Below are positions 2,948-25,025 of a stretch of DNA of 38,871 nt, piece after piece (the stretch's first letter is position 1; each line of letters begins with the position of its first letter). The translations under genes were made by a program, and so were the position numbers. Location of the stretch: positions 1-38,871 of the forward strand of contig NZ_JOIX01000072.1 of the NCBI RefSeq assembly GCF_000720175.1, given 5' to 3'. Origin of the DNA: Streptomyces sp. NRRL S-337. GTDB taxonomy: Bacteria > Actinomycetota > Actinomycetes > Streptomycetales > Streptomycetaceae. The notes below the pieces were generated by a model that ran no database searches, was not told the origin of the DNA, and worked only from the letters and a program-made list of their open reading frames with translations.

Positions 2948-3532
2948 TCACCTTTCCGCTCCCCCGTGGTACAGCGCCCGGCCCAGGCCCAGATTCCAGC
3001 GGCCGCCCCGCCCACTCAGCTCCGTCACGGTCAGCGGCGCCACGTCCAGCCGCCAGAACGCGTCCGCCGGCACCCGCAGGGCACACACCGCGGCGGCCCG
3101 CACCACGTCCGGTTCCACGACCGCCAGCACCCGCCCGGCGTCCAGCGCCATCCGGGTCAGCCAGCCCGCGACCCGGTCGCAGAGCTGCCGCAGCGACTCC
3201 CCGCCGTGCCCGGCGAAGTCCGGATCGGACAGCCAGGCGGAGACCGCGAGCGGTTCCGTTTCGGCCACCTCCGCCAGGGTCCGCCCCCGCCACTCCCCCA
3301 TCGCGCAGCCCGCCAGCTCCGGCACCGGGCCGGCCGGCAGTCCGAGCTCCTTCGCGGTGCGCCGGCAGCGCGCGGAGGGCGAGGCGAAGACTCGGTCGGT
3401 GTCCGGCAGCGCCCCCGCGGCGGCCCGGGCCCGCCGCAGTCCGGCCGCGTGCGGCGGGGAGTCGTCGTCGAAGCGCACCTCGCGCTGGGCGTCGCCCGCG
3501 GCCGGCGAGACCAGCATCACCCGAGTTGTCAT
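2948..3532 (-). CDS. Histidine-phosphatase-fold protein with degenerate active site, next to cbtAB
   Basis: This 194-residue protein follows the histidine phosphatase (phosphoglycerate-mutase) pattern: SPSARCRRTAKELGL matches the usual SPxxRAxQTAE region, CAMGEWRGRTLAEV matches GxWEGR, and GGESLRQLCDRVAGWL matches the GGES segment. The catalytic N-terminal RHG is replaced by SPA (MLVSPAAGD), and the late HGG/HxG site reads VVEPDVVRAAA, so both catalytic histidines are absent. AAAGGAG before the ATG at 3532 supports this start. It is divergent from the B12-riboswitch-controlled cobalt transporter genes, and CobC/CobZ-like phosphatases act in cobalamin synthesis, so a link to cobalt or B12 is plausible. 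As written it is more likely a pseudoenzyme or binding protein than a phosphatase. Confidence 0.7.
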   Translation of the reverse strand: MTTRVMLVSPAAGDAQREVRFDDDSPPHAAGLRRARAAAGALPDTDRVFASPSARCRRTAKELGLPAGPVPELAGCAMGEWRGRTLAEVAETEPLAVSAWLSDPDFAGHGGESLRQLCDRVAGWLTRMALDAGRVLAVVEPDVVRAAAVCALRVPADAFWRLDVAPLTVTELSGRGGRWNLGLGRALYHGGAER

Positions 3533-3655
3533 GCCCTCTTCTCTCCTTTGCCGCCGGGGCTCCAACTCACCTGGGGAGCAAGGGAGTTGCCCGGCGGATG
3601 CGCCCCAGCCCGCACCAGTCCGCCCCCCGAGCGGTCTTGGCCGGGTGGCCGGATC

Positions 3656-3790
3656 GCGGTACGTTTCCCGGTGCTTGACGACGGCATGACGGAAGCCGGT
3701 GGGATCCCGGTGCGGTCGCGCCACTGTATGTCCGGTTTTTTATCAGCCCGCCAGGGGCCGGTACCGGACGAGCCAGACCCGCATGTCGTC
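3656..3790 (+). promoter_or_regulatory. Cobalamin (B12) riboswitch upstream of cbtB
   Basis: The core reads GGAAGCCGGTGGGATCCCGG, then the invariant GCCACTG at 3720-3726, and ends with a B12-box-like AGCCAGACCCGC at 3771-3782. These are the hallmark elements of the cobalamin riboswitch, in order and on the strand of cbtB. A variable arm with a T-run (about 3734-3742) lies between them. A short perfect hairpin (GGGGA/TCCCC, 3807-3823) sits just before the cbtB RBS (AGGAGG, 3829-3834) and could be part of the expression platform. Known: adenosylcobalamin binding usually represses cobalt or B12 transport genes. Exact 5' boundaries are estimated. Confidence 0.85.
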
Positions 3791-3841
3791 CTGCACTCCC
3801 ATTAACGGGGACGCGAGTTCCCCCCAACAGGAGGTCATGCC

Positions 3842-4063
3842 ATGGCTTCGTCCATCGCACCGCCGGCCGCCGGCGCCACCACCACCCCCGCTCCGCTCCC
3901 GCTGAAGGCGATCGCCCCCTGGGCGCTGTTCGCCGGGGTGCTGATGCTGATCCTGCTGTACTTCGTCGGCGCAGAGCAGGGCGCCACCTCGCTGCTGTCC
4001 GGTTCGGACGTCCATGAATGGCTGCACGACGGGCGCCACCTCCTCGGCTTCCCCTGCCACTGA
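3842..4063 (+). CDS. cbtB: CbtB, small subunit of a predicted cobalt transporter
   Basis: This 73-residue protein has one transmembrane segment (APWALFAGVLMLILLYFVGA) and a short C-terminal tail rich in histidine (HEWLHDGRHLLGFPCH), the classic CbtB layout in which the C-terminal His residues are thought to bind metal. The ATG at 3842 has AGGAGG with a 7-nt spacer; an ATG at 3837 is too close to that RBS. It sits directly under the B12 riboswitch and 15 nt before cbtA, so the two are one operon. CbtAB is predicted, mainly from riboswitch association, to import cobalt for cobalamin synthesis. The family call is strong; direct transport evidence for the family is limited. Confidence 0.93.
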   Translation: MASSIAPPAAGATTTPAPLPLKAIAPWALFAGVLMLILLYFVGAEQGATSLLSGSDVHEWLHDGRHLLGFPCH

Positions 4064-4078
4064 CGGACGGCCGCAGCC

Positions 4079-4828
4079 ATGAACTCCCTCACCGTCAGGG
4101 CCCTGCTGGTCCGCGGCATGCTCGCCGGCCTCGCCGCCGGCGCGCTGGCCCTCCTCGTCGCCTACGTGCTGGGCGAACCGCGGATCGACGCGGCCATCGC
4201 CTTCGAGGAGGCACACAGCCACGAACACGAGATGGAAGTGGTCAGCCGCGGACTGCAGTCCACGGCCGGGCTCGCCACCGGCGTCCTGGTCTACGGCGTG
4301 GCGCTGGGCGGGATCGCCGCACTGGCCTTCTGCTTCGCCCTGGGGCGGATCGGCCGGTTCGGGGCCCGCGCCACGGCCCTGCTGCTCTCCGGGGCGGCGC
4401 TGGTGGCCGGCTACGTCGTGCCGTTCCTGAAATACCCGGCCAATCCACCGTCGGTCGGCGACCCCGACACCATCGGCAAGCGCACCGCCCTGTATTTCCT
4501 GATGATGCTGCTCGGCCTCCTGCTGGCCGTCGCCGCCACGATCCTCGGCCGGCGGCTGGCTCCGAAGCTGGGCAACTGGTACGCGACGGTGGCCGCCGTC
4601 GCCGCGTTCGCGGTCGCCGTCGGGCTCGCCTACGCGTTCCTGCCGGCCGTCAACGAGGTGCCCGCGGACTTCTCCGCCACGCTGCTGTGGCAGTTCCGGC
4701 TGTCGGCGCTCGCCGTCCAGCTGGTGCTGTGGGCCGCCTTCGGGCTGGTCTTCGGGCATCTGGCGGAGCGCGTCGTCACGGCCCGGCCGGCGGCCGAGCG
4801 GGCCGAGGCGGTGTCCGTCGCCTCCTGA
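4079..4828 (+). CDS. cbtA: CbtA, membrane subunit of a predicted cobalt transporter
   Basis: This 249-residue membrane protein has about six transmembrane segments. After the first one comes a histidine/glutamate cluster (FEEAHSHEHEMEVVSRGLQS), a likely metal-binding loop characteristic of CbtA. A conserved VPFLKYPANPP motif follows the third segment. It is co-transcribed with cbtB under the B12 riboswitch and ends just before a strong intrinsic terminator, so cbtBA form a two-gene unit repressed when cobalamin is plentiful. The ATG start follows the cbtB stop by 15 nt. Confidence 0.93.
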   Translation: MNSLTVRALLVRGMLAGLAAGALALLVAYVLGEPRIDAAIAFEEAHSHEHEMEVVSRGLQSTAGLATGVLVYGVALGGIAALAFCFALGRIGRFGARATALLLSGAALVAGYVVPFLKYPANPPSVGDPDTIGKRTALYFLMMLLGLLLAVAATILGRRLAPKLGNWYATVAAVAAFAVAVGLAYAFLPAVNEVPADFSATLLWQFRLSALAVQLVLWAAFGLVFGHLAERVVTARPAAERAEAVSVAS

Positions 4829-4938: not shown

Positions 4939-5631
4939 TCAGAGCTGGCCCGGGATGCCGTCGAGGTGCGGCAGGTCGTGGTCGAGACGCTCGCGCTTGG
5001 TGCGGAGATAGCGGATGTTCTCCGCCTGGGGCTCGGCCAGCAGCGGGACGCGTTCGGTGACGGCGATGCCGTGCCGCACCAACGCGGCGCGCTTGCGCGG
5101 GTTGTTGGACAGCAGCCGCACCGCGCGGACGCCGAGGTCGTCGAGGATCTGCGCGGCGGCGCGGTACTCCCGGGCGTCGACCGGGAGCCCGAGCGCGATG
5201 TTCGCCTCGACGGTGTCCAGTCCCTCCTCCTGGAGCTGCATCGCCCGGAGCTTGGCCAGCAGGCCGATGCCCCGGCCCTCGTGGCCCTGGAGGTAGACCA
5301 GCACCCCGCGCCCGGCCGCCGCTATCGCCCGCAGCGCCGCGGACAGCTGGTCACCGCACTCGCAGTGCCGGGAGGCGAACGCGTCCCCGGTCAGGCATTC
5401 CGAATGCACCCGGGTCAGCACCGGTTCGCCGGTGACCTCGCCGTACACCAGCGCCACGTGCTCGGTTCCGCTGGGCCGGTCGAGATAGCCGACCGCCCGG
5501 AACTCCCCGTAGGCGGTGGGCAGCCGGACCGAGACCACCCGTGCCACACCGGGCAGTGGGCGGGCCGTGTCGGGGGCGACGGCGAGGTCATGACCGGGGC
5601 GGGGGCCGCACAGGGCGTCGGGGTCCGTCAT
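4939..5631 (-). CDS. ribA: GTP cyclohydrolase II, Met-variant (formamidopyrimidine-forming type, SCO6655-like)
   Basis: This 230-residue single-domain GCH II has the zinc site Cys79, Cys90 and Cys92 (HSECLTGD and RHCECGDQL), the HEGRGIGLL loop, and [10 protein letters not shown] near the C-terminus. There is no fused RibB domain. At the place of E. coli Tyr105 (KIRAYALQ) it reads KLRAMQLQ, so the residue is Met131. Known: among the three S. coelicolor GCH II paralogues, SCO6655 carries Met here and releases the formylated intermediate (FAPy) instead of completing deformylation, and a Tyr/Met swap controls this. I therefore infer a FAPy-producing enzyme. The divergent neighbour is a creatininase-family amidohydrolase, suited to removing the formyl group. 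No clear RBS precedes the ATG. Confidence 0.93.
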
Positions 5632-5678
5632 GGCGCGATGGTACCCACGGGGGTCGGAACCCGGCGGCGATCACTCAG

Positions 5679-5693
5679 ATACATGACAAGTAT
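5679..5693. promoter_or_regulatory. Candidate operator in the ribA/creatininase divergent promoter
   Basis: ATACATGACAAGTAT is a 15-bp near-palindrome of the form ATACWTGWCAWGTAT in a short AT-rich patch of an otherwise GC-rich 125-bp divergent intergenic region. It looks like a GntR-type or similar dimeric regulator site able to control both genes. No regulator gene is adjacent, so the assignment is by pattern only. Confidence 0.4.
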
Positions 5694-5756
5694 GCTGCGG
5701 CACCCGCGTCCCGACCGGCTCCCGGCGAGCCGACCGACGAAAGGCGGCCGATCCCG

Positions 5757-6512
5757 ATGACCGCTCCCCCGCAACCGCCGACGCCCGCCGGGCTGTTGCC
5801 GGCCGACACCACCGAGGACGTCCGCAGAAGGCGGCCGGAACTTGCGGTGCTGCCCATCGGCAGCTTCGAACAGCACGGCCCGTACCTGCCGTTGACCACC
5901 GACACGGTCATCGCCTGCACCGTCGCCCGGGAGGTGGCCGCCGCCCATGACGTCCTGCTGCTGCCGCCGCTGACCGTCTCCTGTTCGCAGGAGCACGCCG
6001 CCTGGCCGGGGACGGTCAGCATCTCCGCACGGACGCTGCACGCCGTCGTCACGGACCTCGCCGACTCGCTGCTCCGGTCCGGGATCGAGGCCCTGGTCCT
6101 GGTCAACGGCCACGGCGGGAACTACGTGCTGCGCAACGTGGTGCAGGAATCCGCCGGGCGCGGCATCCGGATGGCGCTCTTCCCCGGCACCGCCGACTGG
6201 GACGCCGCCCGCGACCGGGCCGGGATACGCACCTCCGCACACAGCGACATGCACGCGGGCGAACTGGAGACCTCGATCCTGCTGCACGCCCATCCGGAAC
6301 TGGTCAAGGACGGCTACGCCGGCGCGGACTGCCCGGCCGACGACCGCCGGCACCTGCTGACGCTGGGGCTGTCGGCGTACACCACGTCCGGTGTCGTCGG
6401 CCGCCCCTCGCTCGCCTCGGCCGCCAAGGGCCGGGAGCTGCTGGCCGGACTGACCGAGGCGTTCGCCGCGTACGTCACACTGCTGGGTGCCGGGGCGGAC
6501 GCCGATGACTGA
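5757..6512 (+). CDS. Creatininase-family amidohydrolase, probable FAPy deformylase (ArfB-like)
   Basis: This 251-residue protein has the creatininase metal-binding pattern: GSFEQHGPYLPLTTDT near residues 36-50 (Glu38, His40, Asp49), NGHGGN near 120, and DMHAGELETS with the late Glu. Family members include creatininase, MftE of mycofactocin synthesis, and ArfB, the archaeal enzyme that hydrolyses the formamide of 2-amino-5-formylamino-6-ribosylaminopyrimidinone phosphate. It is divergent from a GCH II predicted to stop at exactly that compound and overlaps a RibD-type reductase gene by 8 nt, so an ArfB-like role is the best inference. The ATG at 5757 follows GAAAGGCGG. No mycofactocin genes are near, which argues against MftE. 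Confidence 0.85.
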   Translation: MTAPPQPPTPAGLLPADTTEDVRRRRPELAVLPIGSFEQHGPYLPLTTDTVIACTVAREVAAAHDVLLLPPLTVSCSQEHAAWPGTVSISARTLHAVVTDLADSLLRSGIEALVLVNGHGGNYVLRNVVQESAGRGIRMALFPGTADWDAARDRAGIRTSAHSDMHAGELETSILLHAHPELVKDGYAGADCPADDRRHLLTLGLSAYTTSGVVGRPSLASAAKGRELLAGLTEAFAAYVTLLGAGADADD

Positions 6513-7713
6513 GGTGCTGGGGACCGCACAGGCGTGGCAGCGGCTGCGGCGGATCCGTACGGAAGGGCAGGCCCGGGCCGCCGGGCTGGTGCGGGACGGC
6601 GACGGCCGGCCGCGCTGGGAGGAGCCCGCCTCGGCCGGCGCCACGGAGCTCGCCGAGCGCTACCTGCCGCTCTGCCTGGCCGGCCCGCGGGTGGCGTTCG
6701 GGCAGTTGGGGCAGAGCCTGGACGGCTTCGTGGCGACCCGCACCGGCGACGCCGACTACGTCACCGGGACGGCCGACCGCCGCCATCTGCACCGGCTGCG
6801 GGCGCTCGCCGACGCCGTGCTGGTCGGCGCGGGCACGGCCGTGGCGGACGATCCGCGGCTGACCGTACGGGCCTGCCCCGGCGACAACCCGGTGCGGGTG
6901 GTGCTCGATCCGCGCGGCCGGGTGCCGCACGGCAGCGGGGTGTTCACGGACCGGGCCGCGCCGACGCTGTGGCTGGTGGGGCCGGACGCCGCGGTGCCGC
7001 CGGACGTAACGGGCGAGGGCGTCGAGGTGCTCCGGCTGCCCGACGCGGCGGCGTTCGCCCCGTCACGGCTGCTCGCGGCCCTGGCGCGCCGCGGCCTGGG
7101 CCGGGTGCTGATCGAGGGCGGCGGGGTGACCGTGTCGCGGTTCGTGCAGGCCGGTGCGCTGGACCGGCTGTACCTCACGGTCGCGCCGGTACTGATCGGG
7201 GACGGCGTGCCCGGCCTGCGGTTCCCCGGGACGACGGTGATGCGCGAGGCGCTCCGGCCGCCGCTGCGGCGCACCCTGCTCGGGGAGGACACCCTCTTCG
7301 AGATGGAGTTGCGGACGGCCGGCGCGGAGGGCGGCGCCCCACCGGGCGCACAGCACCACGACGCCGGGCAGGCTGGCGGCGAAGGCGAGGACGCCGTAGA
7401 CGACGGCGGTGGCCAGGCCCTGCGCGGCGCCCAGCCCGGCGGCGCCGAACGCCCAGGCGGCGACGCCCTCGCGGGGCCCCCAGCCGCCGACGTTCAGCGG
7501 CAGCGCCATGGCGAGCAGGGCGAGGACGACCAGCGGCACCAGCTCGGCGGTCGGTGCGGTGACGCCGACGACCCGGGCGGCCAGGACGAACATGGCGAGG
7601 TAGCCCGCGAGGACCACCGCGGAGGACAGGGCGACACCGAAGCGGACGCCGGGGGCGGCCAGGCCCTGGCGCGCCTCGGTCAGGAAGGTGCCCAGCGCGC
7701 GCCGGACGCGTGA
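6505..7713 (+). CDS. RibD C-terminal-type pyrimidine reductase with a non-conserved antisense tail
   Basis: Residues about 60-272 form a RibD_C/dihydrofolate-reductase-like domain: GQSLDGFVA, LRALADAVLVGAGTAVADDPRLTVR, LIEGGGVTVSRFV and LTVAPVLIGDG. This family reduces the ribosylaminopyrimidine phosphate with NADPH in riboflavin-type pathways (ArfC/RibD reductase). The start ATG lies within the last codons of the creatininase gene, implying coupling. The domain ends near 7320, but no stop occurs until 7713. The extra 130 residues are Gly/Gln/Asp-rich, have no domain character and are antisense to the convergent membrane-protein gene. They look like read-through created by loss of the intergenic region. 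There is no deaminase domain. Confidence 0.85.
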   Translation: MTEVLGTAQAWQRLRRIRTEGQARAAGLVRDGDGRPRWEEPASAGATELAERYLPLCLAGPRVAFGQLGQSLDGFVATRTGDADYVTGTADRRHLHRLRALADAVLVGAGTAVADDPRLTVRACPGDNPVRVVLDPRGRVPHGSGVFTDRAAPTLWLVGPDAAVPPDVTGEGVEVLRLPDAAAFAPSRLLAALARRGLGRVLIEGGGVTVSRFVQAGALDRLYLTVAPVLIGDGVPGLRFPGTTVMREALRPPLRRTLLGEDTLFEMELRTAGAEGGAPPGAQHHDAGQAGGEGEDAVDDGGGQALRGAQPGGAERPGGDALAGPPAADVQRQRHGEQGEDDQRHQLGGRCGDADDPGGQDEHGEVAREDHRGGQGDTEADAGGGQALARLGQEGAQRAPDA

Positions 7714-8256
7714 GGTGCCGGGGCGGCGCCGCAGCCACCGGGCGAGGACCAGCGCCGCGGCGCCCACCGCGGCGGCGGTCACGGCGGCGCCGGGTGAGGC
7801 CAGCGCGCGGACGGCCGGCGCGAGGACCGGGGACGGCCGGGCGAGCAGCACCACGGCCCCGGCGAGCACCAGCACCAGCTGGCCGGCGGTGCGTTCCAGG
7901 ACCACCGCCCGCACCCCGCGGCCCAGGTCGCCGGAGGCCCGGCCGTGCCCCACCGCGCGGTGGACGTCGCCCAGGACGCCACCGGGCAGCGCCGCGTTGA
8001 GGAACAGCGCCCGGTAGTAGTCGGCGACCGCCCGGCCCAGCGGCAGTCGAAGGCCCAGGCCGCGAGCCACCAGACACCAGCGCCAGGCACTGCCGACCGT
8101 GGTCAGCAGGCCGAGTGCGAGGGCCGCGAGCAGCGCTCCGGCGTCGATCCGGCGCAGCCCGTCCAGGAAGGCCCCGGAACCCAGGTGCCACACCAGAGCC
8201 GCCAGGATGCCCGCGCCCGCGAGCAGCCGCAGCAGCGCCCAGCCGCGGCGGTTCAT
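7063..8256 (-). CDS. Lysylphosphatidylglycerol synthase TM-region / flippase-like membrane protein
   Basis: This 397-residue product has 7-8 transmembrane segments over its first 315 residues and the motifs of the UPF0104/LPG_synthase_TM family (YYRALFLNAALPGGVLGDV, VVLERTAGQL, LPLNVGGWGPREG). Such proteins are MprF-type flippase domains without the aminoacyl-transferase part and often accompany glycosyltransferases and lipid-carrier pathways. The ATG overlaps the stop of the upstream methyltransferase as ATGA. The domain should end near 7310, but the frame stays open to 7063. The final ~80 residues are antisense to the convergent reductase and probably not functional. Transported substrate unknown; the context suggests the cluster's lipid-linked or amphipathic product. 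Confidence 0.8.
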   Translation of the reverse strand: MNRRGWALLRLLAGAGILAALVWHLGSGAFLDGLRRIDAGALLAALALGLLTTVGSAWRWCLVARGLGLRLPLGRAVADYYRALFLNAALPGGVLGDVHRAVGHGRASGDLGRGVRAVVLERTAGQLVLVLAGAVVLLARPSPVLAPAVRALASPGAAVTAAAVGAAALVLARWLRRRPGTSRVRRALGTFLTEARQGLAAPGVRFGVALSSAVVLAGYLAMFVLAARVVGVTAPTAELVPLVVLALLAMALPLNVGGWGPREGVAAWAFGAAGLGAAQGLATAVVYGVLAFAASLPGVVVLCARWGAALRAGRPQLHLEEGVLPEQGAPQRRPERLAHHRRPGEPQAGHAVPDQYRRDREVQPVQRTGLHEPRHGHPAALDQHPAQAAARQGREQP

Positions 8257-9110
8257 CCCCCGTCCCCGGGCGGCGGACCGGGCAGCGCCAGCAGGTCGGT
8301 GTGGTGCACGGTCACGCCCAGTTCGCCCGCCGCGCACTCCTCCAGCCGGCGCCCCAGATAGGCCGCCGCCTCCGGTGCCAGCGCGGGCCGCTGGGCGTGT
8401 GCGGCGCCGACCCAGCCGCGCAACCATTCGGCGGTCAGCGCGGACTCCGCGCAGCCGAGCCGCCACGGGCTGGACCGCAACCGCACCGTCCAGCCGTGCC
8501 GTTCGAACGCCGTGACCGCCGCCGCGACCGCGTCCGGACCGAGCAGCCCGCGGTCCCCGTCGGTACGGCGCTGGTGGTCGTTGAAGGCGGCGGCCAGCTC
8601 CGCGTCGAGCGGATCGGGCGGGGTCAGCTCCACCCGTCCGGCAACCGAGAGCGCCAGCAGGACCGGGCAGCCGGCACCCGCGCAGGCCGCCGCGAGCGCC
8701 TCGATCTCGTCGAGGGTGAGCAGATCGAGCAGGGCGGAGGCGGTGACCAGGGAGGTCCCGGCGAGGTCGGCGGCGGTGAGGGCGGTCAGGTCGCCGCGCT
8801 CGGTGGTGGCGGTGACCGGCGTGCCGTCGGCGGCCGTCGCGGGCATCCGGGCGCCGGCCTCGGCGAGCAGCACCGGGTCGTGGTCGTGCAGGATCCAGCG
8901 TTGCGGGCCGGGCAGCCGGACGGCGAGCCAGCGCGCCATGGAGCCGGTGCCGCAGCCCAGGTCGCGGATGGTCAGGCCGGGCGGGCCGGGCCGTCCGGCG
9001 AGCGCTCTGCGCAGCGGACGGAGGAGTTCGGGGGCCCGGGCCGCGGCGTCGGCGCGTTCGCGCAACTCCAGCCAGCGCGGGGCGAATCGGGGGCTGCCGA
9101 CGGCGGTCAA
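8253..9110 (-). CDS. Class I SAM-dependent methyltransferase
   Basis: The product is about 285 residues, with motif I DLGCGTGSMARWLA, an acidic loop LHDHDPVLLAEA after beta-2 and an LLDLLTLDEIEAL segment. The TTG at 9110 overlaps the glycosyltransferase stop as TTGA and has GGAG six nt upstream, so I prefer it. An ATG at 9179 would add 23 residues inside the upstream gene. The stop overlaps the start of the flippase-like gene as ATGA. The acceptor is unknown; the operon suggests a pterin/pyrimidine-derived or glycosylated intermediate. Confidence 0.82.
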   Translation of the reverse strand: MTAVGSPRFAPRWLELRERADAAARAPELLRPLRRALAGRPGPPGLTIRDLGCGTGSMARWLAVRLPGPQRWILHDHDPVLLAEAGARMPATAADGTPVTATTERGDLTALTAADLAGTSLVTASALLDLLTLDEIEALAAACAGAGCPVLLALSVAGRVELTPPDPLDAELAAAFNDHQRRTDGDRGLLGPDAVAAAVTAFERHGWTVRLRSSPWRLGCAESALTAEWLRGWVGAAHAQRPALAPEAAAYLGRRLEECAAGELGVTVHHTDLLALPGPPPGDGG

Positions 9111-10228
9111 CGGCTGCTCCGGGGGTCGTGCCGAAGCCGTTCCAGCGCTTCGGCCAGGCTGTGCGACGTCATCTCCCACCCCTCCAGCATGGCACGCCGT
9201 CCGCGCGCGGCTTCCCGCAGCCGGTGCCGCAGCGCCCGGTCCCCGAGCCAGTCGCCGAGGGCACCGGAGAGCGCCGCGGGTTCCCCGGCGGGGACGAGGA
9301 GGCCGGGCGGGGTGCCGTCGGGGGCCCGCCCGAGGGCCTCCGGTACGCCGTCGACGGCCGTGGCCAGGACGGGAATTCCGCGCGCCAGCGCCTCGGTGAT
9401 CACCATGCCGTAGGTCTCGGCGTACGAGGCGAGCACCAGCAGGTCGGCGGCGGCGTAGTGCGCGGCCAGCTCGGCACCGGTCTGTGGCCCGGCGAAACGG
9501 ATCCGGCCGCCGAGCCCCAACTCATCGACGTGATCCCGCAGTTGGGCGGCGTAACCGGGGTCTTTGCCGGGACCGCCGACGAAGGTGCAGTGCCAGGGCG
9601 GACCGGTGACGGTGGCCAGGGCGTCGAGCAGCCGGCGGTGTCCCTTGCGCGGGGTGAGCGCGGCGACGCAGAGCAGCGCGGTGCCGTGGCCGGTGCCGGG
9701 GGCGAGCGGTGCGGGGTCGGTCCCGGGCCGGGCGACGTGCACGCGGGCGGGCGGCAGGTGATGGTGCGCGGTGAGCCGGCCGGCGGCCCAGGCGCTGGTG
9801 GCCACGACGGCGCCGGCGGCGTGCAGGGCCCGGCGTTCCCGGGCGTCCAGGTCGGCGGCCTCGCGGGGGTCGAGCCCGGTCTCGTCGGCCAGCGGCAGAT
9901 GGACGAGGACGGCGAGCCGCAGCCGGGCGGCCTCGGGCCGCAGGACCTCGGGGACGCCGCAGCCGACCAGCCCGTCGAGGAGGACCACCGCGCCGTCGGG
10001 CAGTTCCGCCAGCAGCCGGGCCAGCTCGGCGCGGTCGGCGGCGGCCGGCCGCGGCCAGGCGCCGGGCAGGGCGTGCGGGCGCACGCGCCACCCCGCCGCC
10101 GGAAGGCCCTGGCACACCCGGCGGTCGTAGGTGTTGCCGCCGCTGGGCGCCGCCGGGTCGCCGACGCCGCCGGGCAGGACGACGTGCACCGTCCGCTCCC
10201 CGGCCGTGGCGGCGCCGCCGCGGGTCAC
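9107..10228 (-). CDS. GT4-family (GT-B fold) glycosyltransferase
   Basis: This 373-residue GT-B glycosyltransferase has an N-terminal Rossmann domain beginning [21 protein letters not shown] (acceptor side) and a C-terminal donor domain with [28 protein letters not shown] and the E-x7-E signature in [20 protein letters not shown]. The fold transfers sugar from a nucleotide sugar to an acceptor; donor and acceptor cannot be read from sequence. The GTG start overlaps the stop of the PTPS-like gene as GTGA, and its own stop overlaps the methyltransferase start, so translation is tightly coupled through the operon. Confidence 0.9.
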
Positions 10229-10623
10229 AGCGCGCGCTCGTAGGTGGCCCAGGCGATATGTGATTCGTGCAAGGTGACGGATATGCCGGTCAGTTCGCGG
10301 GCGCCCTCGCCGAGGTTTCCGGCCTGCACGCGGTCGGCGAGCCGGTCCGCGATGACCTTGGCCAGCGCCTCCGTCGAGGTGTTGGTGCCGGCGAAGGCGG
10401 GCTCGTCGTCGAGGTTGCGGTAGTTCAGCTCGCCGACCACACCGGCGAGTTCCTGGGTGGCCAGGCCGATGTCCACGACGATGTTGTCGGCGTCGAGCTC
10501 GGGCCGGCGGAAGGTGGCGTCCACGATGAACGTCGCGCCGTGGAGCCGCTGCGCGGGGCCGAACACGGCACCGCGGAAGCTGTGCGCGACCATCAGGTGA
10601 TCGCGGACGGTGATGCTGAACAA
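10225..10623 (-). CDS. 6-pyruvoyl-tetrahydropterin synthase / QueD homologue (SCO6650-like), cysteine-less
   Basis: This 132-residue T-fold protein is close to S. coelicolor SCO6650, whose crystal structure is known as a PTPS homologue with a zinc centre. Zinc-type histidines are visible in MVAHSF and RLHGATF, and the substrate-anchoring Glu is in [13 protein letters not shown]. The whole protein contains no cysteine, so the catalytic Cys of PTPS and QueD is missing and a standard reaction is unlikely. The TTG start has GGAGGA 7 nt upstream, and the stop overlaps the glycosyltransferase start by 4 nt. In context it probably acts on a pterin or a pyrimidine precursor derived from the FAPy branch. 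Confidence 0.9.
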
Positions 10624-10696
10624 GGCCGTTCCTCCGGTGTGATGTCGGTCTCAGTGACGGTGCGGTGGGGGCGGATCGGGGGCCGGGGCGCGGCGC

Positions 10697-11686
10697 CTAC
10701 CGGCCGTCCGGCGGTGCGTACCGGATGCGGTGGCAGAGCGCCGGGAGGTCGCCGGAGGCGAGCCGGGGCAGCACCTGCGGCAGTTCCTCGAAGGCGGACT
10801 CCCCGGTGATCAGCGCGTCGAAGGCCGGATCGGCGAGGAGTTCGAGGGCGAGCGCCATCCGGTCGGCGTAGCTGCGGCGGGCCCGCCGGGCCGGGGAGAC
10901 GGTGCCGACCTGGCTGCTGCGCACGACCAGCCGGCGGGAGTGGAACGCCTCGCCCAGCGGCAGGCTGACCCGCCGGTCGCCGTACCAGCTCAGCTCCAGC
11001 ACGGTGCCTTCCGGCGCGAGCAGTTCGAGGGCACGGGCCAGTCCTTCCTCGGTGGCGCTGGCGTGCACGACGAGGTCGCAGTCGCCCCGGGCCTCGGCGG
11101 GCAGCGCGAAGTCCACCCCGAGCGCCCGGGCGGTGGCGGCGCGGCCGGGATCGGCGTCGACCAACTGCACCCGCACCGCCGGGTAACGGGCGAGGAGGGC
11201 GGCCACACTGCATCCGACCATGCCGCCGCCGATCACCGCGATCCGGTCGCCGATCAGCGGCCCGGCGTCCCAGAGGGCGTTGACCGCGGTCTCGACGGTG
11301 CCGGCGAGGACGGCGCGGGCGGCGGGCACGGTGTCCGGTACGGGGGTGACGGCGTGGGCCGGGACCACGTAGTGCGTCTGGTGCGGGTACAGGCAGAAGA
11401 CCGTGCGGCCGTGCAGCGCGGGCGGTCCCTCCTCGACGACGCCGACGTTGAGGTAGCCGTATTTGACCGGTGCCGGGAAGTCGCCCTCCTGGTAGGGCGC
11501 GCGCATCGCCGTGTGCTGGCTCTCGGGCACCCCGCCGCGGAAGACCAGGGTCTCGGTGCCGCGGCTCACCCCGGACCAGAGGGTGCGCACCAGCACCTCG
11601 TCGGGCCCGGGCCCGGACAGCTCCGCCGGCCGGATCTCGCCCTGTCCTGGGGCGTTTGTCCAAAAGGCACAAGCGGCGCGCGGCAA
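10697..11686 (-). CDS. Zinc-type alcohol dehydrogenase superfamily oxidoreductase, BchC-like, without catalytic zinc Cys
   Basis: This 329-residue medium-chain dehydrogenase has the N-terminal segment SGVSRGTETLVFRGG where true zinc ADHs have CGxCGxD, so the catalytic Cys ligand is Ser. The SRGTE motif is shared with BchC-like dehydrogenases. KYGYLNVG replaces the usual GHE/GYE zinc region. The nucleotide-binding domain is intact (IAVIGGGMVGCSVAALLA). The TTG start at 11686 has AGGAGG with a 6-nt spacer. It is first in the operon, with a 73-bp gap to the PTPS-like gene. I infer an NAD(P)H oxidoreductase of the pathway, probably not zinc-dependent. Confidence 0.85.
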   Translation of the reverse strand: MPRAACAFWTNAPGQGEIRPAELSGPGPDEVLVRTLWSGVSRGTETLVFRGGVPESQHTAMRAPYQEGDFPAPVKYGYLNVGVVEEGPPALHGRTVFCLYPHQTHYVVPAHAVTPVPDTVPAARAVLAGTVETAVNALWDAGPLIGDRIAVIGGGMVGCSVAALLARYPAVRVQLVDADPGRAATARALGVDFALPAEARGDCDLVVHASATEEGLARALELLAPEGTVLELSWYGDRRVSLPLGEAFHSRRLVVRSSQVGTVSPARRARRSYADRMALALELLADPAFDALITGESAFEELPQVLPRLASGDLPALCHRIRYAPPDGR

Positions 11687-11793
11687 CGGGATCCTCCTGG
11701 ACGCTACGGCGAGGAGTCCTCGATGCTGGGGATCAAGGACGCCGTCACCCTACGCGGCGCCCCCGGACTCCGCCACAGGTCAAGGGAGGCACG

Positions 11794-12588
11794 GTGGCCG
11801 TACAAGAGCACTTCGACACAAGAGCCTTGGGGCCGGACACCACGGCGGGCATGGGCGTGCAGCTGCTGGTGCTGGAGGTGCTGTGCCGGCTGGTCGGGCT
11901 GGGCACCGCGGGATGGCTGACGGGCTCGGCGTTCGCGGTGGTGACCTGGGCGGTGCTCACGCTGGCGCTGCGCCGGTCGTGGACCGGTCCGTTCGGGCCG
12001 GCGAACCGTGTCACGCTGGCCCGGGCGATCCTGGTGGGCGGGGTGACCGCGCTGGTCGCGGACTCCTTCGACCGGCGGGCCCCGGTCGCGGTGCTGACCG
12101 CGCTGGCCACGGTGGCACTGATCCTGGACGCCGTGGACGGCCAGGTGGCCCGGCGCACCGGCACGGCGACGCCGCTGGGGGCGCGTTTCGACATGGAGGT
12201 CGACGCGTTCCTGATCCTGGTGCTGTGCGTGTACGTCGCGATGCCGCTGGGTGTCTGGGTCCTGGCGATCGGTCTGATGCGGTACGCGTTCGTCGCGGCG
12301 TCCTGGCTCTGGCCGTGGTTGCGCGGTGCGCTGCCGCCCAGCATGGCCCGGAAGACGGTGGCGGCGCTGCAGGGCGTCGTGCTGGTGGTGGCCGGTGCCG
12401 GGATCGTGCCGCGGGCGGTGGCCGGCGCTGCGGTGGCCACCGCGCTGGCGCTGCTGGTGTGGTCGTTCGGACGGGACGTCAGGTGGCTGTGGCGGGTGCG
12501 GACGGGGGCTCGGGCGGACTCCGCTACGTGCCCGCGTGCCGTCCCAGATAGACGACCAGTGCGAGGAAGAGCAGCAGCAGGTTCGTGA
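11794..12588 (+). CDS. CDP-alcohol phosphatidyltransferase family membrane enzyme
   Basis: This ~264-residue integral membrane protein carries the complete CDP-alcohol phosphotransferase signature Dx2DGx2ARx8Gx3Dx3D at residues 112-137 (LDAVDGQVARR then PLGARFDMEVD), preceded by GPANRVTLARAIL. The family transfers a phospho-alcohol group from a CDP-alcohol (such as CDP-diacylglycerol) to an alcohol acceptor. GTG at 11794 follows AAGGGAGG. It is divergent from the dehydrogenase operon across about 107 bp and probably shares a regulator with it. The last 20 or so residues lose membrane character and are antisense to a small convergent gene. Acceptor unknown; it hints that the cluster product is membrane-linked. 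Confidence 0.88.
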   Translation: MAVQEHFDTRALGPDTTAGMGVQLLVLEVLCRLVGLGTAGWLTGSAFAVVTWAVLTLALRRSWTGPFGPANRVTLARAILVGGVTALVADSFDRRAPVAVLTALATVALILDAVDGQVARRTGTATPLGARFDMEVDAFLILVLCVYVAMPLGVWVLAIGLMRYAFVAASWLWPWLRGALPPSMARKTVAALQGVVLVVAGAGIVPRAVAGAAVATALALLVWSFGRDVRWLWRVRTGARADSATCPRAVPDRRPVRGRAAAGS

Positions 12589-13631: not shown

Positions 13632-15938
<2,307 letters not shown>

Positions 15939-15962
15939 GTCAGCCGCCACCCCTCCTGATAT

Positions 15963-18405: not shown

Positions 18406-19434
18406 ATGACCACCGTAAGTCCCTCGCCCCAGTCGGCCATGCGGCTGCGGGAGCTCGTCTTCGGAGCCGCGTGCGCGGCGGCGGTACGGGCGGCGGCGCG
18501 GCTCGGCGTCGCCGACGCGCTCGGCGACCGGCCGGCCTCCGCCGAGGAGCTCGCCGCCGAGGTGAAGGCCGAACCTCGGCCGCTGGAAAGGCTGTTGCGC
18601 GCACTGTCCTGCTACGGGATCTTCGCGGAGACCGACGACGGGAAGTACGTCCACACCGACATGTCCCGGATGCTGCGCGAGGACACCCCGAACAGCCTGC
18701 GCTACATCTCCCTGTGGTGCACCGAGCCGTGGACCTGGGAGGCGTGGCCGCGGCTCGACGAGGCGGTGCGCTCCGGTCGCGACGTCTTCGACGACCTGTA
18801 CGGCAAGAGCTTCTTCGAGTACCTGCACCAGGACGCCACGGAGTCCGCCCAGGTCTTCGACCGGGCCATGACCACCTCCAGCAAGCAGTCGGCCGAGGAC
18901 GTCGCCCGGCTGCTGGACCTGTCGAAGGCACAGTCGGTGGCGGACATCGGCGGCGGGCAGGGCCACGTCCTCGCCAGCCTGCTGGAGAAGCACCCCTCGC
19001 TGGAGGGCACCCTGCTCGACCTGCCCACGGTCGTGGCGCATCCGGATCCCCGGCTGCGCGCGGGCGGTCCGCTCGCGCCGCGGGTGAAGGTGGTGCCCGG
19101 CGACTGCCGGGAGGACATCCCGGTCCGGGCCGACGTCTACATCATCAAGAACATCCTGGAGTGGGACGACGACTCCACCCGCCGGACGCTGCACAACGTC
19201 AAGTCGGCGGCCCGGCCCGGCGCCCGGGTGGTGGTCATCGAGAACCTCGTCGACGACAGCCCGTCGATGAAGTTCACCACCGCCATGGACCTGCTGCTCC
19301 TGCTGAACGTGGGCGGCGCCAAGCACACCAAGGACAGCATGATCCGCCGGCTCTCGGACGCCGGACTGGAGGTGCACGACGTCCTCGTCGTCAACCCGTA
19401 CCTGCACGCCTTCGAGTGCACCGTCCCGGCGTGA
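18406..19434 (+). CDS. O-methyltransferase-family protein lacking the usual catalytic His, beside the spore-pigment cluster
   Basis: This 342-residue protein has an N-terminal dimerisation winged-helix domain (LRELVFGAACAAAVRAAARLGV through LLRALSCYGIFAE) and a SAM-binding Rossmann domain (VADIGGGQGHVLASLL, GTLLDLPTVV, PGDCREDIP). This is the layout of aromatic polyketide O-methyltransferases. The motif normally reading KNxLHEWDD or KxxLHDW is KNILEWDDD: the general-base His position is deleted. It faces the whiE-type operon tail to tail with a 38-bp gap and may tailor the pigment, although this gene is not part of the classic eight-gene whiE set. Chemistry other than base-assisted O-methylation is possible. 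Confidence 0.85.
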   Translation: MTTVSPSPQSAMRLRELVFGAACAAAVRAAARLGVADALGDRPASAEELAAEVKAEPRPLERLLRALSCYGIFAETDDGKYVHTDMSRMLREDTPNSLRYISLWCTEPWTWEAWPRLDEAVRSGRDVFDDLYGKSFFEYLHQDATESAQVFDRAMTTSSKQSAEDVARLLDLSKAQSVADIGGGQGHVLASLLEKHPSLEGTLLDLPTVVAHPDPRLRAGGPLAPRVKVVPGDCREDIPVRADVYIIKNILEWDDDSTRRTLHNVKSAARPGARVVVIENLVDDSPSMKFTTAMDLLLLLNVGGAKHTKDSMIRRLSDAGLEVHDVLVVNPYLHAFECTVPA

Positions 19435-19472
19435 GCAACGGGCCGCCGCCCGGAACCGGCACGGCCTGCGCG

Positions 19473-19805
19473 TCAGCGACTGCCGTCGCGCTCCCAGCGG
19501 TAGAACTGCTGGGCCATCGCGTCCTTGGGGCTCCGCCAGGTCTCGGGGTCGTAGGCGCTGACGAAGGCGGACAGCTTGTCGCTCACCACACGGAACTCGG
19601 GGTGCTCGGTGACCTTGGCGATCTCCGGGCCGGGCGGCCGGTCGGATTCGATGAGGTGCAGGTACACCTCACCGAACTGGAACAGGGTCCGCCGCGAGAC
19701 GCCGACCAGGTGCGGCAGTTCCGTACGGTCGGACTCGCGGAAGACCTCCGCGATGTCCGGTGCCGAACCGGGTTTCATGCGGGCGACGATCAGAGCGTGA
19801 TGCAT
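19473..19805 (-). CDS. whiE-ORFVII: TcmI-type polyketide cyclase, WhiE ORFVII equivalent
   Basis: This 110-residue protein is a single ferredoxin-like alpha+beta barrel of the TcmI family (HHALIVARMKPGSAPDIAEVF, RTLFQFGEVYLHLIE, ending W-R-S-P-K-D-A-M-A-Q-Q-FYRWE). The family folds and cyclises later rings of aromatic polyketides. It is last in the reverse-strand spore-pigment operon, 56 nt after the aromatase gene; its ATG follows GAAGGGATC. Confidence 0.9.
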   Translation of the reverse strand: MHHALIVARMKPGSAPDIAEVFRESDRTELPHLVGVSRRTLFQFGEVYLHLIESDRPPGPEIAKVTEHPEFRVVSDKLSAFVSAYDPETWRSPKDAMAQQFYRWERDGSR

Positions 19806-19861
19806 CGGGAAGATCCCTTCGTTGCCGCCCGAGGGCGGTCCGGACGCGGCCCGGCGGGCCG

Positions 19862-20624
<763 letters not shown>

Positions 20625-20639
20625 GTGCGGTTCTCCTTC

Positions 20640-21890
20640 TCACGAGGGGGACGGCCGGCCCTGCCGCAGCACCATTGCCGCGTTCGAGCCCATCAGTCCC
20701 CGGCTCAGCACCAGCGCCGTCCGCAGTTCGGCGGGGCGGGCCCGGCCGGTCACGACGTCAAGGTCGTGGCACACGTCGACGACGTTGGGGGTGGGCGGCA
20801 CCACACCGTGTTCCATGGCGAGCACCGCGGCCGCGATGTCCAGGACGGGGGCACCGCAGTACGCCCGCCCGGTGCCGGTCTTGGGCGCGGTCACCGGGAC
20901 CTGGGTGGCCTGCCGGCCCAGGGCGTCCGCGAGGGCCAGCGCCTCGGCCCGGTCGGCCGAGGGGACGCCCAGGGCGTCCGCGAACACCACGTCGATCTCG
21001 TCCGGGGCGCACCGCGCGTCCTCCAGCGCGCCGCGGATGGCGTGGGCGAGTCCGGCCCGGGACTCCTCCCACCGGGAGGCGCCGGTGAAGGTCGCGGCGT
21101 GTCCGGACAGTTCGGCCCGGACGGGTGCGCCACGGCCCTCGGCCGCCGTCGCCTCCTCGACGACCAGCATCGCGCCGCCTTCGGCGGGCACGAATCCGCA
21201 GGCGCCGTCGGTGAACGGGCGGTAGGCGCGGACCGGGTCGTCGAGCGTGCTCAGGTCGTCGTAGCCGAGCTGGCAGACGACCGAGTAGGGGGCCAGCGGT
21301 GCCTCGGCGGCGCCCACGACGACCGCGTCGGTGCCGCGCCGCACGGTGCGGCAGGCGTGCGCCAGGGCGTCCAGGCCGCCCGCCTCGTCGCTGGCCACGA
21401 CTCCGCAGGGGCCCTTGAAGCCGCCGCGGATGGAGATCTGTCCGGTGCTGGCGGCGTAGAACCAGGCGATCGACTGGTAGGGGCCGACGTATTTGGAGCC
21501 CTGGCCCCACAGCCGTTGCAGCTCGCGCTGGCCGAACTCGCCGCCGCCGGACCCGGCGGCGGTGACGACGCCGACCGCGAACGGCGAGTCGGCGTAGTCG
21601 GCGCGGCCGAGGTGGGCGTCGTCCAGCGCGAGGTTGGCCGCCGCCATGGCGAAGTGGGTGAACCGGTCGGTCTGGACGAGGTAGCGCTCCTCGATCAGGT
21701 CCGCCGGATCGAAGCCGCGTACCTCACCGGCGACCTTGAGCGGCAGGTGCTCGCAGCCCTCCCGGGTCACCCGGTCGAGGACGCTGATGCCTTCCTTGGT
21801 CGCCTTCCAGAAGGCGTCAATACTCACCCCGTTGGGGGCGATGACGCCCATGCCGGTGACGACGGAGCGTCGTTCCTTCGCGGAGCTCAT
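20640..21890 (-). CDS. whiE-ORFIV: Chain length factor (KS-beta), WhiE ORFIV equivalent
   Basis: This 416-residue ketosynthase-fold protein pairs with KS-alpha. It starts [21 protein letters not shown] at 21890, overlapping the KS-alpha stop as ATGA; long frames extending further upstream are read-through of the KS gene. The nucleophile region reads [13 protein letters not shown], so the KS-alpha Cys position holds Glu169. Most chain length factors have Gln here (AEQAGG or similar), which promotes malonyl-ACP decarboxylation. The CLF sets chain length; WhiE-type systems make a C24 dodecaketide. Whether Glu is common in WhiE-type CLFs I cannot check. Confidence 0.93.
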
Positions 21891-23155
21891 GCCGACCTCC
21901 CGCCCTGTCGGGTCAGTACCACCGCTGACTGGAATCCGCCGAAGCCGCTGCCGACCGAGAGCACCGAACGCAGCGGCAGTTCCCGCGCCGTCCTGGGCAC
22001 GTAGTCGAGGTCGCACTCCGGGTCCGGGGTCTCGTAGTTGGCCGTCGGCGGCACGACCTGGTGGGTCAGGGCCAGCACGCAGGCGACGATCTCGATGGCG
22101 CCGATCGCGCCGAGCGAGTGGCCCACCATGGATTTGATGGAGCTCATCGGCACCTTGTGGGCGTGTGCGCCCAGCGACCGCTTGACCGCGGCGGTCTCGT
22201 GCCGGTCGTTCTGCTGGGTGCCCGAACCGTGCGCGTTGACGTAGTCGACCTGGGTGGCGTCGATCCTGGCGTGGTCGAGCGCGCGGTTGATCGCCTCGGC
22301 CATCTCCAGGCCCTCCTGGGTCAGCCCGGTCATGTGGTAGGCGTTGCCGAAGGTGGCGTAGCCGCGGAGCTCGCAGTGCACGGTCGCTCCGCGGGCCCGG
22401 GCGTGCTCCAGCTCCTCCAGGACGAGCACGGCGCCGCCCTCGCCCATGACGAATCCGTCGCGGTGGGCGTCGAACGGCCGGGAGGCGTGGGCGGGGTCGT
22501 CGTTGTTGGCGGAGGTCGCCTTGATCGCGTCGAAGCAGGCCACGGTGATCGGGGAGATCGGCGAGTCCGACGCGCCGGCGATACAGACGTCGACCTTGCC
22601 CTCCTCGATGGAGTGGAAGGCGTAGCCGATGGCGTCGAGGCCGGAGGTGCAGCCCGTGGAGACGGTCTGCACCGGGCCGTGCGCGCCGACCTGTTCGGCC
22701 ACCGCGGAGGCCAGCGAACTGGGCGAGAAGGCCCGCTCCAGGTGGCGGCCGGCCGGCCGGTGGTCGACGTCCCAGCGCTTGCCGCGGTCGCTGACGGCGA
22801 CGTAGTCGTGTTCGAGGCGGGTGGTGCCGCCGACCGCGGTGCCCAGGGAGACCCCGATGCGCCAGGGGTTCTCCCGTTCGGGGTCCAGGCCGGCGTCGCG
22901 CAGCGCCTCGTCCGCGGCGACCATGGCGAACTGGACGTACCGGTCCGAGCGGGCGACCTGCTCCGCGCTCAGGCCGTGCGCCGCGGGGTCGAAGTCGCAT
23001 TCGGCGGCGATGCGCGAGCGGAATCCCTCCGGGTTGAAGAGGGTGATGCCACGGGTCGCCGTACGGCCGGCGGACAGCAGGTCCCAGAAGGCGGGCACTC
23101 CCACCCCGCCGGGCGCGACGATCCCGACTCCGGTGACCGCCACGCGGCGCGTCAT
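21887..23155 (-). CDS. whiE-ORFIII: Ketosynthase alpha of the type II spore-pigment PKS, WhiE ORFIII equivalent
   Basis: This 422-residue beta-ketoacyl synthase has all catalytic residues: Cys169 in [12 protein letters not shown], His in [12 protein letters not shown] and Lys/His in [12 protein letters not shown]. It forms the minimal PKS with the chain length factor and ACP. The ATG overlaps the cupin stop as ATGA, and its stop overlaps the CLF start, so cupin, KS-alpha and CLF are coupled. Gene order and length match whiE and other spore-pigment clusters. Confidence 0.95.
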
Positions 23156-23586
23156 GACACCGGCTCCGTGCGTTCGGGCGGGGCGGCGGGGCTGCTCTCC
23201 TCGGTACCCTCGGTGTCGACGTGCCCCAGCTCGGGGCGGGGCGCCAGCGGGCCGAGGTGGAAGACCATCCGGGCCTCGACGTCCCCGACGTTGCGGAACC
23301 GGTGCCGCATGTAGGGCGGGATCAGCAGCCCCTGGTCCGGGCGCAGCGGATGGGGCTCCCCGTCGAGGTCCACTTCGAGCGCGCCCTGGACGACGTACAC
23401 GAACTCCTCGGAGTACGGGTGGTAGTGCTCTCCGATGCGCTCGCCGGGCTGTACGAGGGCCATGCCCATGAAGCCGCTCGTGGCACCCACCGCGCTGGGC
23501 GTCAGCATGGCGCGCAGATCACCTCCACGCCGGCGGTTGGGCTGGGTCTCGCTGAGGTCCACGATGCGTGGGCGGTGCGTGGTCAT
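23152..23586 (-). CDS. whiE-ORFII: Cupin-domain protein, WhiE ORFII equivalent
   Basis: This 144-residue single-domain cupin has the metal-binding motif [21 protein letters not shown] (motif 1, two His and a Glu) and [10 protein letters not shown] (motif 2 with His). Cupins of this position (SchB/CurC-type context) occur in nearly all spore-pigment and some angucycline-like clusters. Their exact reaction is unsettled, with roles in pigment oxygenation or cyclisation proposed. The start ATG is 67 nt downstream of ORFI. Confidence 0.9.
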
Positions 23587-23653
23587 GGCTGAATCCTCCA
23601 GGGGCGTGAAGCCGGCGGTGGGTTGGGATGGGACCTGCTCCGGGCGGACGGTG

Positions 23654-24772: not shown

Positions 24773-25025
24773 CGTCTACGCATCTCCTTCGGTGCCCGAT
24801 GGCCCCTGTGGTGCGTCGTCAGTTCCGGTGCGATCCGGGTGACTGAGCCGGATGGTGGGGCTGCCCGCCCCGGATGTCCGGGGGGCGTCCCGGATTCGAT
24901 CGTGGCCGGGACGTACGGGCGGCGCGAGATCTGTGAGCCATGCAGGTGAACCGTGATCGAACAGGTCCACGGCCGGGCATTCGTGCTCCATCTGCCCTCA
25001 ATGCGCCTTGGAGCTGGAGCACGCC
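24773..25025. promoter_or_regulatory. Divergent promoter region of the spore-pigment cluster
   Basis: This 253-bp gap separates the ORFI-VII operon from the ORFVIII hydroxylase and must contain both promoters. In S. coelicolor the matching gap holds whiEP1 and whiEP2, which fire late in sporulation, the latter depending on sigma-F. I found no clear -10/-35 pairs here, so the promoter positions are not assigned. Confidence 0.5.

Follow-up and report, generated by a model that had tools for sequence, protein, structure and literature searches.

A conserved gene cassette of Streptomyces predicted to open GTP through a FAPy-type intermediate and to feed a modified pterin-like product

The window, as the whole analyzed stretch of 38,871 nucleotides from Streptomyces sp. 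NRRL S-337 (contig NZ_JOIX01000072.1; source assembly size 9.06 Mb) is called here, carries at 4939-12588 nine genes that belong to a real, widespread, and coherent cassette. The gene content suggests, with somewhat better than even confidence, a dedicated pathway in which GTP would be opened to 2-amino-5-formylamino-6-ribosylamino-4(3H)-pyrimidinone 5'-phosphate (FAPy), FAPy would be deformylated and reduced to its ribityl form, and the resulting compound would be converted to a modified pterin-like product. The Streptomyces coelicolor locus and the reported FAPy chemistry of its protein SCO6655 are already known. The nine genes are listed below with the evidence for each assignment.

4939..5631, minus strand: GTP cyclohydrolase II (GCHII) variant of the SCO6655 type, with predicted release of FAPy (PF00925, alignment to 2bz0, Met131, CX10CXC)
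5757..6512, plus strand: creatininase-family amidohydrolase, a predicted FAPy formamide hydrolase in an ArfB/BrbF-like role (PF02633, motifs, coupling to non-Tyr GCHII)
6505..7713, plus strand: RibD_C-type reductase without a deaminase domain, type A, its conserved part reaching to about 7314 (PF01872, 6p8c match, GCHII fusions among relatives)
7063..8256, minus strand: flippase-like membrane protein of the LPG_synthase_TM family; position of the 3' end uncertain (PF03706)
8253..9110, minus strand: class I S-adenosylmethionine-dependent methyltransferase (PF13649, DLGCGTG motif, AlphaFold2 model)
9107..10228, minus strand: GT4 glycosyltransferase (PF00534, EX7E motif ETYGMVITE)
10225..10623, minus strand: Cys-free homologue of 6-pyruvoyltetrahydropterin synthase (PTPS) with altered zinc and Asp-His motifs, orthologue of SCO6650 (3d7j match, motif table)
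10697..11686, minus strand: medium-chain dehydrogenase of alcohol-dehydrogenase fold, catalytic zinc ligands apparently lost, weakly BchC-like (weak profile matches, AlphaFold2 model)
11794..12588, plus strand: CDP-alcohol phosphotransferase, transcribed away from the dehydrogenase gene (PF01066, DX2DGX2ARX8GX3DX3D motif)

The nine families named in the first-pass annotation, which was made from the sequence alone, were all confirmed, eight of them with Pfam (GTP_cyclohydro2, E 2.1e-68; Creatininase, 8.7e-66; RibD_C, 7.1e-36; LPG_synthase_TM, 9.6e-33; Glycos_transf_1, 4.1e-30; PTPS, 8.5e-23; CDP-OH_P_transf, 8.5e-11; Methyltransf_25, 3.4e-7), the dehydrogenase being the weakest call. The gene overlaps of 4-8 nt that it had described were measured as 4 nt at the PTPS/GT4, GT4/methyltransferase, and methyltransferase/flippase junctions and 8 nt at the creatininase/RibD junction. 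The open reading frames of the reductase and the flippase-like protein are convergent and share 651 nt, so the 3' ends of these two genes are uncertain; the family domains matched by Pfam do not overlap. An Rfam scan returned no hits, and a sequence check at the locus found no TTA codons.

Conservation of the cassette was assessed in several samples. When a PTPS alignment was used to scan named genomes of bacteria and archaea, at least 587 relatives were confirmed, and the 80 best loci were retained; their gene order is remarkably well preserved. The named relatives closest to the window PTPS are from Streptomyces. Gene order was counted in 51 Streptomyces loci, 8 of which were dropped for short flanks, leaving 43 evaluable loci with the window included. 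Eight genes lie in one order and orientation in all 43, and a reductase of the window's type (reductase A) is added in 9; this identity of order places the grouping beyond chance. Among 121 genomes of the window's genus (the same species may occur twice across the genome and named-record sets), PTPS is present in 51, a close GCHII in 51, and both in 50, and a creatininase of at least 65% identity occurs in 51, of which 50 are PTPS-positive. One exception, G504, is a highly fragmented assembly whose GCHII and creatininase genes lie on a contig of 3.3 kb; the other, the PTPS-positive G490, has dehydrogenase, PTPS, and a type B reductase followed by unrelated genes, without a Met-type GCHII or a close creatininase match. 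As a control, ten PTPS-negative genomes hold a creatininase at 54-62% identity, and tblastn detected no other cassette gene around these creatininases in five regions (L212-L216).

Of 92 loci, 18 shorter than 20 kb were set aside before gene-family content was counted. In the 40 loci of at least 20 kb that are neither of the Arthrobacter type nor among the distant loci L025-L027, dehydrogenase and GT4 occur in 40 each, methyltransferase, flippase, and CDP-alcohol transferase in 37 each, GCHII in 35, creatininase in 29, and a RibD reductase in 13. In 148 of 152 loci, no more than 700 bp separate the dehydrogenase gene from PTPS. Across an even sample of the phylum, 14 of 396 genomes had a match. 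The three distant loci L025, L026, and L027, from another class and perhaps Rubrobacter-like, carry a RibD-dehydrogenase-PTPS-GT4 cassette in which the HGH zinc motif is kept; in L025 and L027 GT4 and methyltransferase are fused, an acyltransferase match below threshold lies near the cassette, and L027 also has FolB. The first-pass annotation had staked its proposal of a dedicated unit on the membrane and sugar genes occurring together with the GCHII/creatininase/PTPS core, and they do so in Streptomyces, in other actinobacterial families, and on plasmids of Rhizobiaceae.

The entry steps are the part of the predicted pathway that is well supported by comparison of sequences. The window GCHII scores 222 bits against the ribA model (cut-off 206) and has an intact CX10CXC zinc motif, and its Met131 aligns with Tyr105 of the Escherichia coli enzyme (2bz0), a Tyr that is needed for the full deformylating reaction. 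The window protein is classed as a predicted FAPy-type variant on account of this replacement, and SCO6655 is said, in work by Spoonamore from 2006, to make FAPy, which is attributed to Met in place of Tyr there as well. The adjoining creatininase homologue belongs to its superfamily by PF02633 and by the metal-ligand motifs EQH..D, NGHGGN, and HAGELE. It scores 37.3 bits against the ArfB model, below the cut-off of 180, and its best NCBIfam score, 146.8 bits for MftE, is below the cut-off of 172.

GCHII is present in 89 of the 152 loci, and there the residue at the Tyr position coincides with the presence of the amidohydrolase: all 16 loci with a Tyr-type enzyme are without creatininase, and all 73 with Met, His, Gln, or Leu have one (72 above the creatininase score cut, plus L081 with a partial match just below it). 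Loci of the Micromonospora, Micrococcales, and Rhizobiaceae types have the Tyr enzyme and no creatininase, and in these a single enzyme would open the ring and remove the formyl group. In a tree of 59 GCHII rows from loci other than the plasmid-borne ones, the non-Tyr enzymes paired with creatininase form a single clade beside actinobacterial GCHII of RibBA length, and the actinobacterial GCHIIs that belong to clusters branch at three distinct points of this tree; Rhizobiaceae and Palleronia have further Tyr-type enzymes, which are absent from it. The pairing fits both the reported FAPy release by SCO6655 and a bacterial formamidase, BrbF of Sinorhizobium meliloti. BrbF is an annotated creatininase that deformylates AFRPP, the same compound as FAPy (PMC9478397). 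Like the window protein, it would thus be a bacterial creatininase-annotated enzyme for FAPy deformylation; unlike it, BrbF serves riboflavin and has no known GTP-opening partner, whereas the window creatininase is paired with a specific GCHII (PMC9478397).

The next step would fall to the RibD-type protein, which would reduce the ribosyl group to give 2,5-diamino-6-ribitylamino-4(3H)-pyrimidinone 5'-phosphate. Its frame of 402 aa, the first 270 residues of which served as the query in searches for reductase A, matches PF01872 only and has no deaminase domain, and its best match in the Protein Data Bank is 6p8c, a 2,5-diamino-6-ribosylamino-pyrimidinone 5'-phosphate reductase. Against the ArfC model TIGR01508 it scores 96 bits, below the cut-off of 186. 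Where 2b3z has a Lys ahead of its SLDG motif, the cassette reductases inspected have Gln, Ser, or His. GCHII is fused to a RibD-type reductase in L065, L069, and L108. In a quick tree the cassette reductases form separate clades A, B, and C. Among the 51 PTPS-positive Streptomyces genomes, 9 have A only, 41 have B only, none has both, and one, a 79% complete assembly, has neither; among the 70 PTPS-negative genomes A occurs in none (a 46% match in G418 was not counted). Beyond this sample, B was found in 9 of 9 non-Streptomyces genomes of the creatininase type and in 4 of 4 Streptomyces without A, and was absent from 6 of 6 genomes with A. In Micromonospora clusters reductase B adjoins a Tyr-type GCHII (GCHII_B), and the same pair, 53-64% identical, occurs unlinked from the cassette in six Streptomyces regions, chosen for having a third GCHII there; GCHII_B accompanies one of seven reductase B regions from PTPS-negative genomes. 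Because the either-or occurrence of A and B tracks PTPS and because GCHII-RibD fusions exist, the reductase is very likely a required partner in full cassettes, although the counts are not independent of one another.

The archaeal ArfA/ArfB/ArfC route, which makes the riboflavin/F420 precursor, provides a logical parallel: FAPy, its deformylation by an enzyme of creatininase fold, and a reduction without deamination would follow in the same order. The window differs in starting with GCHII rather than GCHIII, in having a creatininase and a reductase that score below the archaeal model cut-offs, and in adding PTPS, sugar, methyl, and lipid genes. The archaeal logic read into the locus by the first-pass annotation is upheld by the coupling of GCHII type to creatininase and by a reductase-only RibD protein that is fused to GCHII in relatives and tracks PTPS, but it describes only one variant of the cassette, the loci with Tyr-type GCHII doing without creatininase. 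The parts do not have the look of archaeal imports: the Met-type GCHII groups with actinobacterial enzymes of RibBA length, and the creatininase scores 37 bits with the ArfB model and highest with MftE.

Beyond the ribityl stage the proposed scheme is more conditional. The dehydrogenase would oxidize a secondary side-chain hydroxyl. In Pfam only DAO, through a Rossmann match, exceeds its cut-off (29.5 bits against 27.9), and ADH_zinc_N stays below its own at 2.3e-5; the AlphaFold2 model (pLDDT 87.7) has an alcohol-dehydrogenase fold closest to threonine, idonate, and sorbitol dehydrogenases (TM score 0.75-0.80), and an alignment and motif check indicates that the zinc ligands are apparently lacking. 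The earlier description of this protein as BchC-like reflects a weak resemblance, the score against TIGR01202 being 42.1 bits with a cut-off of 291. The PTPS homologue, a T-fold protein apparently without zinc, may act on or close the resulting pterin-like system. It matches 3d7j (SCO6650) over its full length with E 2.4e-68 and is its orthologue, but is only a homologue of 6-pyruvoyltetrahydropterin and 6-carboxytetrahydropterin synthases (QueD model 34 bits, cut-off 89). As the first-pass annotation had stated, the window protein has no Cys anywhere, and all 91 relatives that cover the site of the catalytic Cys have Ala there. Of these 91, 88 have lost the third zinc His, the three distant members retaining HGH; the Asp-His pair is altered (LNYRNLD), and the Glu of the last motif is kept by the window protein.

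The methyltransferase may methylate, and GT4 may glycosylate, the pterin-like compound; the methyltransferase model (pLDDT 90.8) has a generic class I fold in a structure search (TM score about 0.6) with no hint of substrate. The CDP-alcohol phosphotransferase, assigned by PF01066 and a complete DX2DGX2ARX8GX3DX3D motif, might join a lipid to the compound or to its sugar, and outward movement of the product might be the task of the flippase-like protein. The product would accordingly be pterin-like and methylated, in most lineages glycosylated, and possibly lipid-anchored.

A translated search of plasmid records gave 20 with PTPS, of which 14 were opened. GCHII (RibA), dehydrogenase, PTPS, GT4, methyltransferase, RibD, CDP-alcohol transferase, and flippase-like genes lie together on the pAt plasmid of Agrobacterium tumefaciens, in Peteryoungia, and in Rhizobium sp. 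SL42, accompanied in all three by a cytochrome b gene and by one annotated as a sulfatase, and three more unannotated Rhizobiaceae records show the same gene set by tblastn; CDP-alcohol transferase and flippase are both present in 6 of the 7 Rhizobiaceae plasmid records examined. Thiodictyon has dehydrogenase, PTPS, GT4, methyltransferase, cytochrome b, RibD, and CDP-alcohol transferase, Methylosinus OB3b has dehydrogenase, PTPS, GT4, RibD, and a methyltransferase-like protein, and smaller sets occur in two Rhodobacterales, of which one lacks GT4. Dehydrogenase and PTPS are hence the constant pair, with GT4, methyltransferase, and the RibD reductase the next most regular. A cytochrome b gene lies near the RibD reductase in seven proteobacterial loci (L218, L219, L220, L224, L225, L227, and L230) and is Pfam cytochrome b561 in both that were tested (L218 and L219); it is a possible redox partner of the cassette product. 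A sulfatase gene lies beside the CDP-alcohol transferase or flippase in Micromonospora (L089, 6289-8085) and Rhizobiaceae (L218, 5205-6791; L220, 4472-6115), the first assigned to the sulfatase superfamily by Pfam and the other two by annotation, with no Pfam family match for the Agrobacterium protein (L218). An MdoH-type membrane glucosyltransferase gene adjoins the dehydrogenase in Methylosinus (L217, 9079-10881) and Neorhizobium (L223, 7098-9011), and a plasmid of Streptomyces anthocyanicus holds an orphan PTPS homologue amid unrelated genes (L222, 9001-9426).

Several observations weigh against a single dedicated pathway of this kind. The nine-gene set is not universal, since 31 full-length Arthrobacter-type loci keep dehydrogenase and PTPS, with GT4 detectable in 27, and none of the other cassette genes; reductase B was also absent from 5 of 5 Arthrobacter-type genomes searched. 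Neorhizobium L223 has dehydrogenase, PTPS, GT4, and a methyltransferase-like protein with no RibD within the stretch, L226 has neither GT4 nor membrane genes nearby, and in L079 and L082 the available stretch includes a creatininase and no GCHII. Reductase B occurs in 16 of the 70 PTPS-negative Streptomyces genomes and stands without a GCHII_B neighbor in G334 and G396. The link between Tyr loss and creatininase rests on one event, because the non-Tyr enzymes form one clade, in a tree with flagged long branches; the A/B switch amounts to two changes on the cassette-protein tree, and independent-pairs tests found only one or two pairs. The much-changed PTPS active site makes its reaction hard to predict, and no conserved phosphatase was identified among the cassettes, for which no dedicated search was made. 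Two stronger statements were rejected: Fisher p-values at face value, which kinship inflates (one event for Tyr/creatininase, two changes for A/B), and the claim that the nine genes always occur together, given the two to three genes of Arthrobacter-type loci, the reduced L226, L228, and L223, the different G490, and the PTPS orphan on the S. anthocyanicus plasmid.

Three other explanations were considered. The RibD-type protein could be a late pterin or side-chain reductase, the GCHII product forming a pterin directly, with no ribityl intermediate; RibD_C has a DHFR-like fold, clusters without a nearby GCHII (L025-L027, L217, L219) still hold a reductase, and reductase B is mostly unlinked from the cassette in Streptomyces. 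This is nonetheless unlikely in view of the three GCHII-RibD fusions, the best structural match to a diamino-pyrimidinone phosphate reductase, and the adjacency of GCHII_B and reductase B in Micromonospora clusters and the six selected Streptomyces regions, though that adjacency held in only one of seven PTPS-negative regions.

That the genes simply provide an extra supply of riboflavin or F420 precursor, the rest of the block being unrelated, is less probable still, even though GCHII, creatininase, and RibD are riboflavin-type enzymes and BrbF serves riboflavin in S. meliloti (PMC9478397): the scanned cassette genes include no member of the deaminase, lumazine synthase, or riboflavin synthase families, different GCHII and reductase types have been brought beside the same dehydrogenase-PTPS pair, and the source genome retains a second GCHII in a 704-aa frame of RibBA length. 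Equally improbable are two independent modules lying side by side, one for pyrimidine/pterin chemistry (GCHII, creatininase, RibD, dehydrogenase, PTPS) and one for a glycolipid (GT4, CDP-alcohol transferase, flippase). The lack of membrane genes in Arthrobacter-type loci and of both GT4 and membrane genes in L226 would suit such a division, but these genes stay with the core, their order rearranged, in Streptomyces, in further families of actinobacteria, and in Rhizobiaceae, GT4 is fused to the methyltransferase in L025 and L027, and the 4-nt overlaps join the PTPS, GT4, methyltransferase, and flippase genes.

The dedicated-pathway reading gains context from S. coelicolor, where the window PTPS has its orthologue in SCO6650 (3d7j) and where counting genes in Streptomyces tendae (L073) suggests that GT4, methyltransferase, flippase, creatininase, and GCHII correspond to SCO6651, SCO6652, SCO6653, SCO6654, and SCO6655. 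The window differs in having its own RibD reductase between flippase and creatininase, most cassette-bearing Streptomyces having type B elsewhere. No function for the SCO6650-SCO6655 locus as a whole was found in the literature searched. In two expression studies, SCO6655, identified as GCHII, stands with SCO2687 in a table of genes mostly rising in stationary phase (PMC2853524), and SCO6652, the cassette methyltransferase by counting from SCO6650 and a hypothetical protein there, has log2 values of 0.8, 4.3, and 4.1 at 24, 48, and 72 h in second versus first mycelium (PMC3610822). These data suggest a late, developmental product.

Bacterial pterin glycosides, such as those of cyanobacteria and the biopterin-GlcNAc of Chlorobium, share the idea of a glycosylated pterin and start from GTP cyclohydrolase I products. 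In Chlorobium, a pteridine glycosyltransferase acts on biopterin, whereas the window has GCHII/RibD enzymes and GT4.

The surroundings of the cassette contain further genes. Beside GCHII, at 2948-4828, lie a histidine phosphatase gene and CbtB/CbtA cobalt transporter genes, and phosphatase and CbtA also adjoin GCHII in G470, G493, and Streptomyces kronopolitis (L078). Genes for a UvrA-like ABC protein and, in divergent orientation, a TetR regulator (13632-15950) flank the cassette, as in G470. About 6 kb away, at 18406-26660, are type II polyketide genes (ketoacyl synthase, SchA/CurD-like, polyketide cyclase, FAD hydroxylase, and O-methyltransferase), presumably spore-pigment-like.

A bolder proposal, doubtful at present, is that the product is a membrane-anchored, glycosylated, and methylated pterin made without GTP cyclohydrolase I, in which GCHII would open the ring, RibD would reduce C1', the dehydrogenase would re-oxidize C2', and the zinc-less T-fold protein would close the ring, the compound then being placed on a phospholipid and flipped to serve as a new kind of redox carrier bound to lipid. 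In Proteobacteria its partner would be cytochrome b561, and in Streptomyces it would act in aerial hyphae or spores.

A description of the pathway or its product was not found in the open-licence literature searched, most subscription papers lying outside it, and to our knowledge no pathway has been assigned since the 2000s to SCO6655, reported to form FAPy, or to SCO6650, an inert PTPS homologue. Both now fall in one conserved cassette, carried by 51 of the 121 sampled Streptomyces genomes; Rhizobiaceae, a methanotroph, and a purple sulfur bacterium bear relatives of it on plasmids. The rule that creatininase is present where Tyr is lost, along with the either-or reductases, offers a testable first half of a pathway. 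The genes for the CDP-alcohol transferase, the flippase, and cytochrome b561 give a hint that the pterin-like molecule may not be one of the common cofactors.

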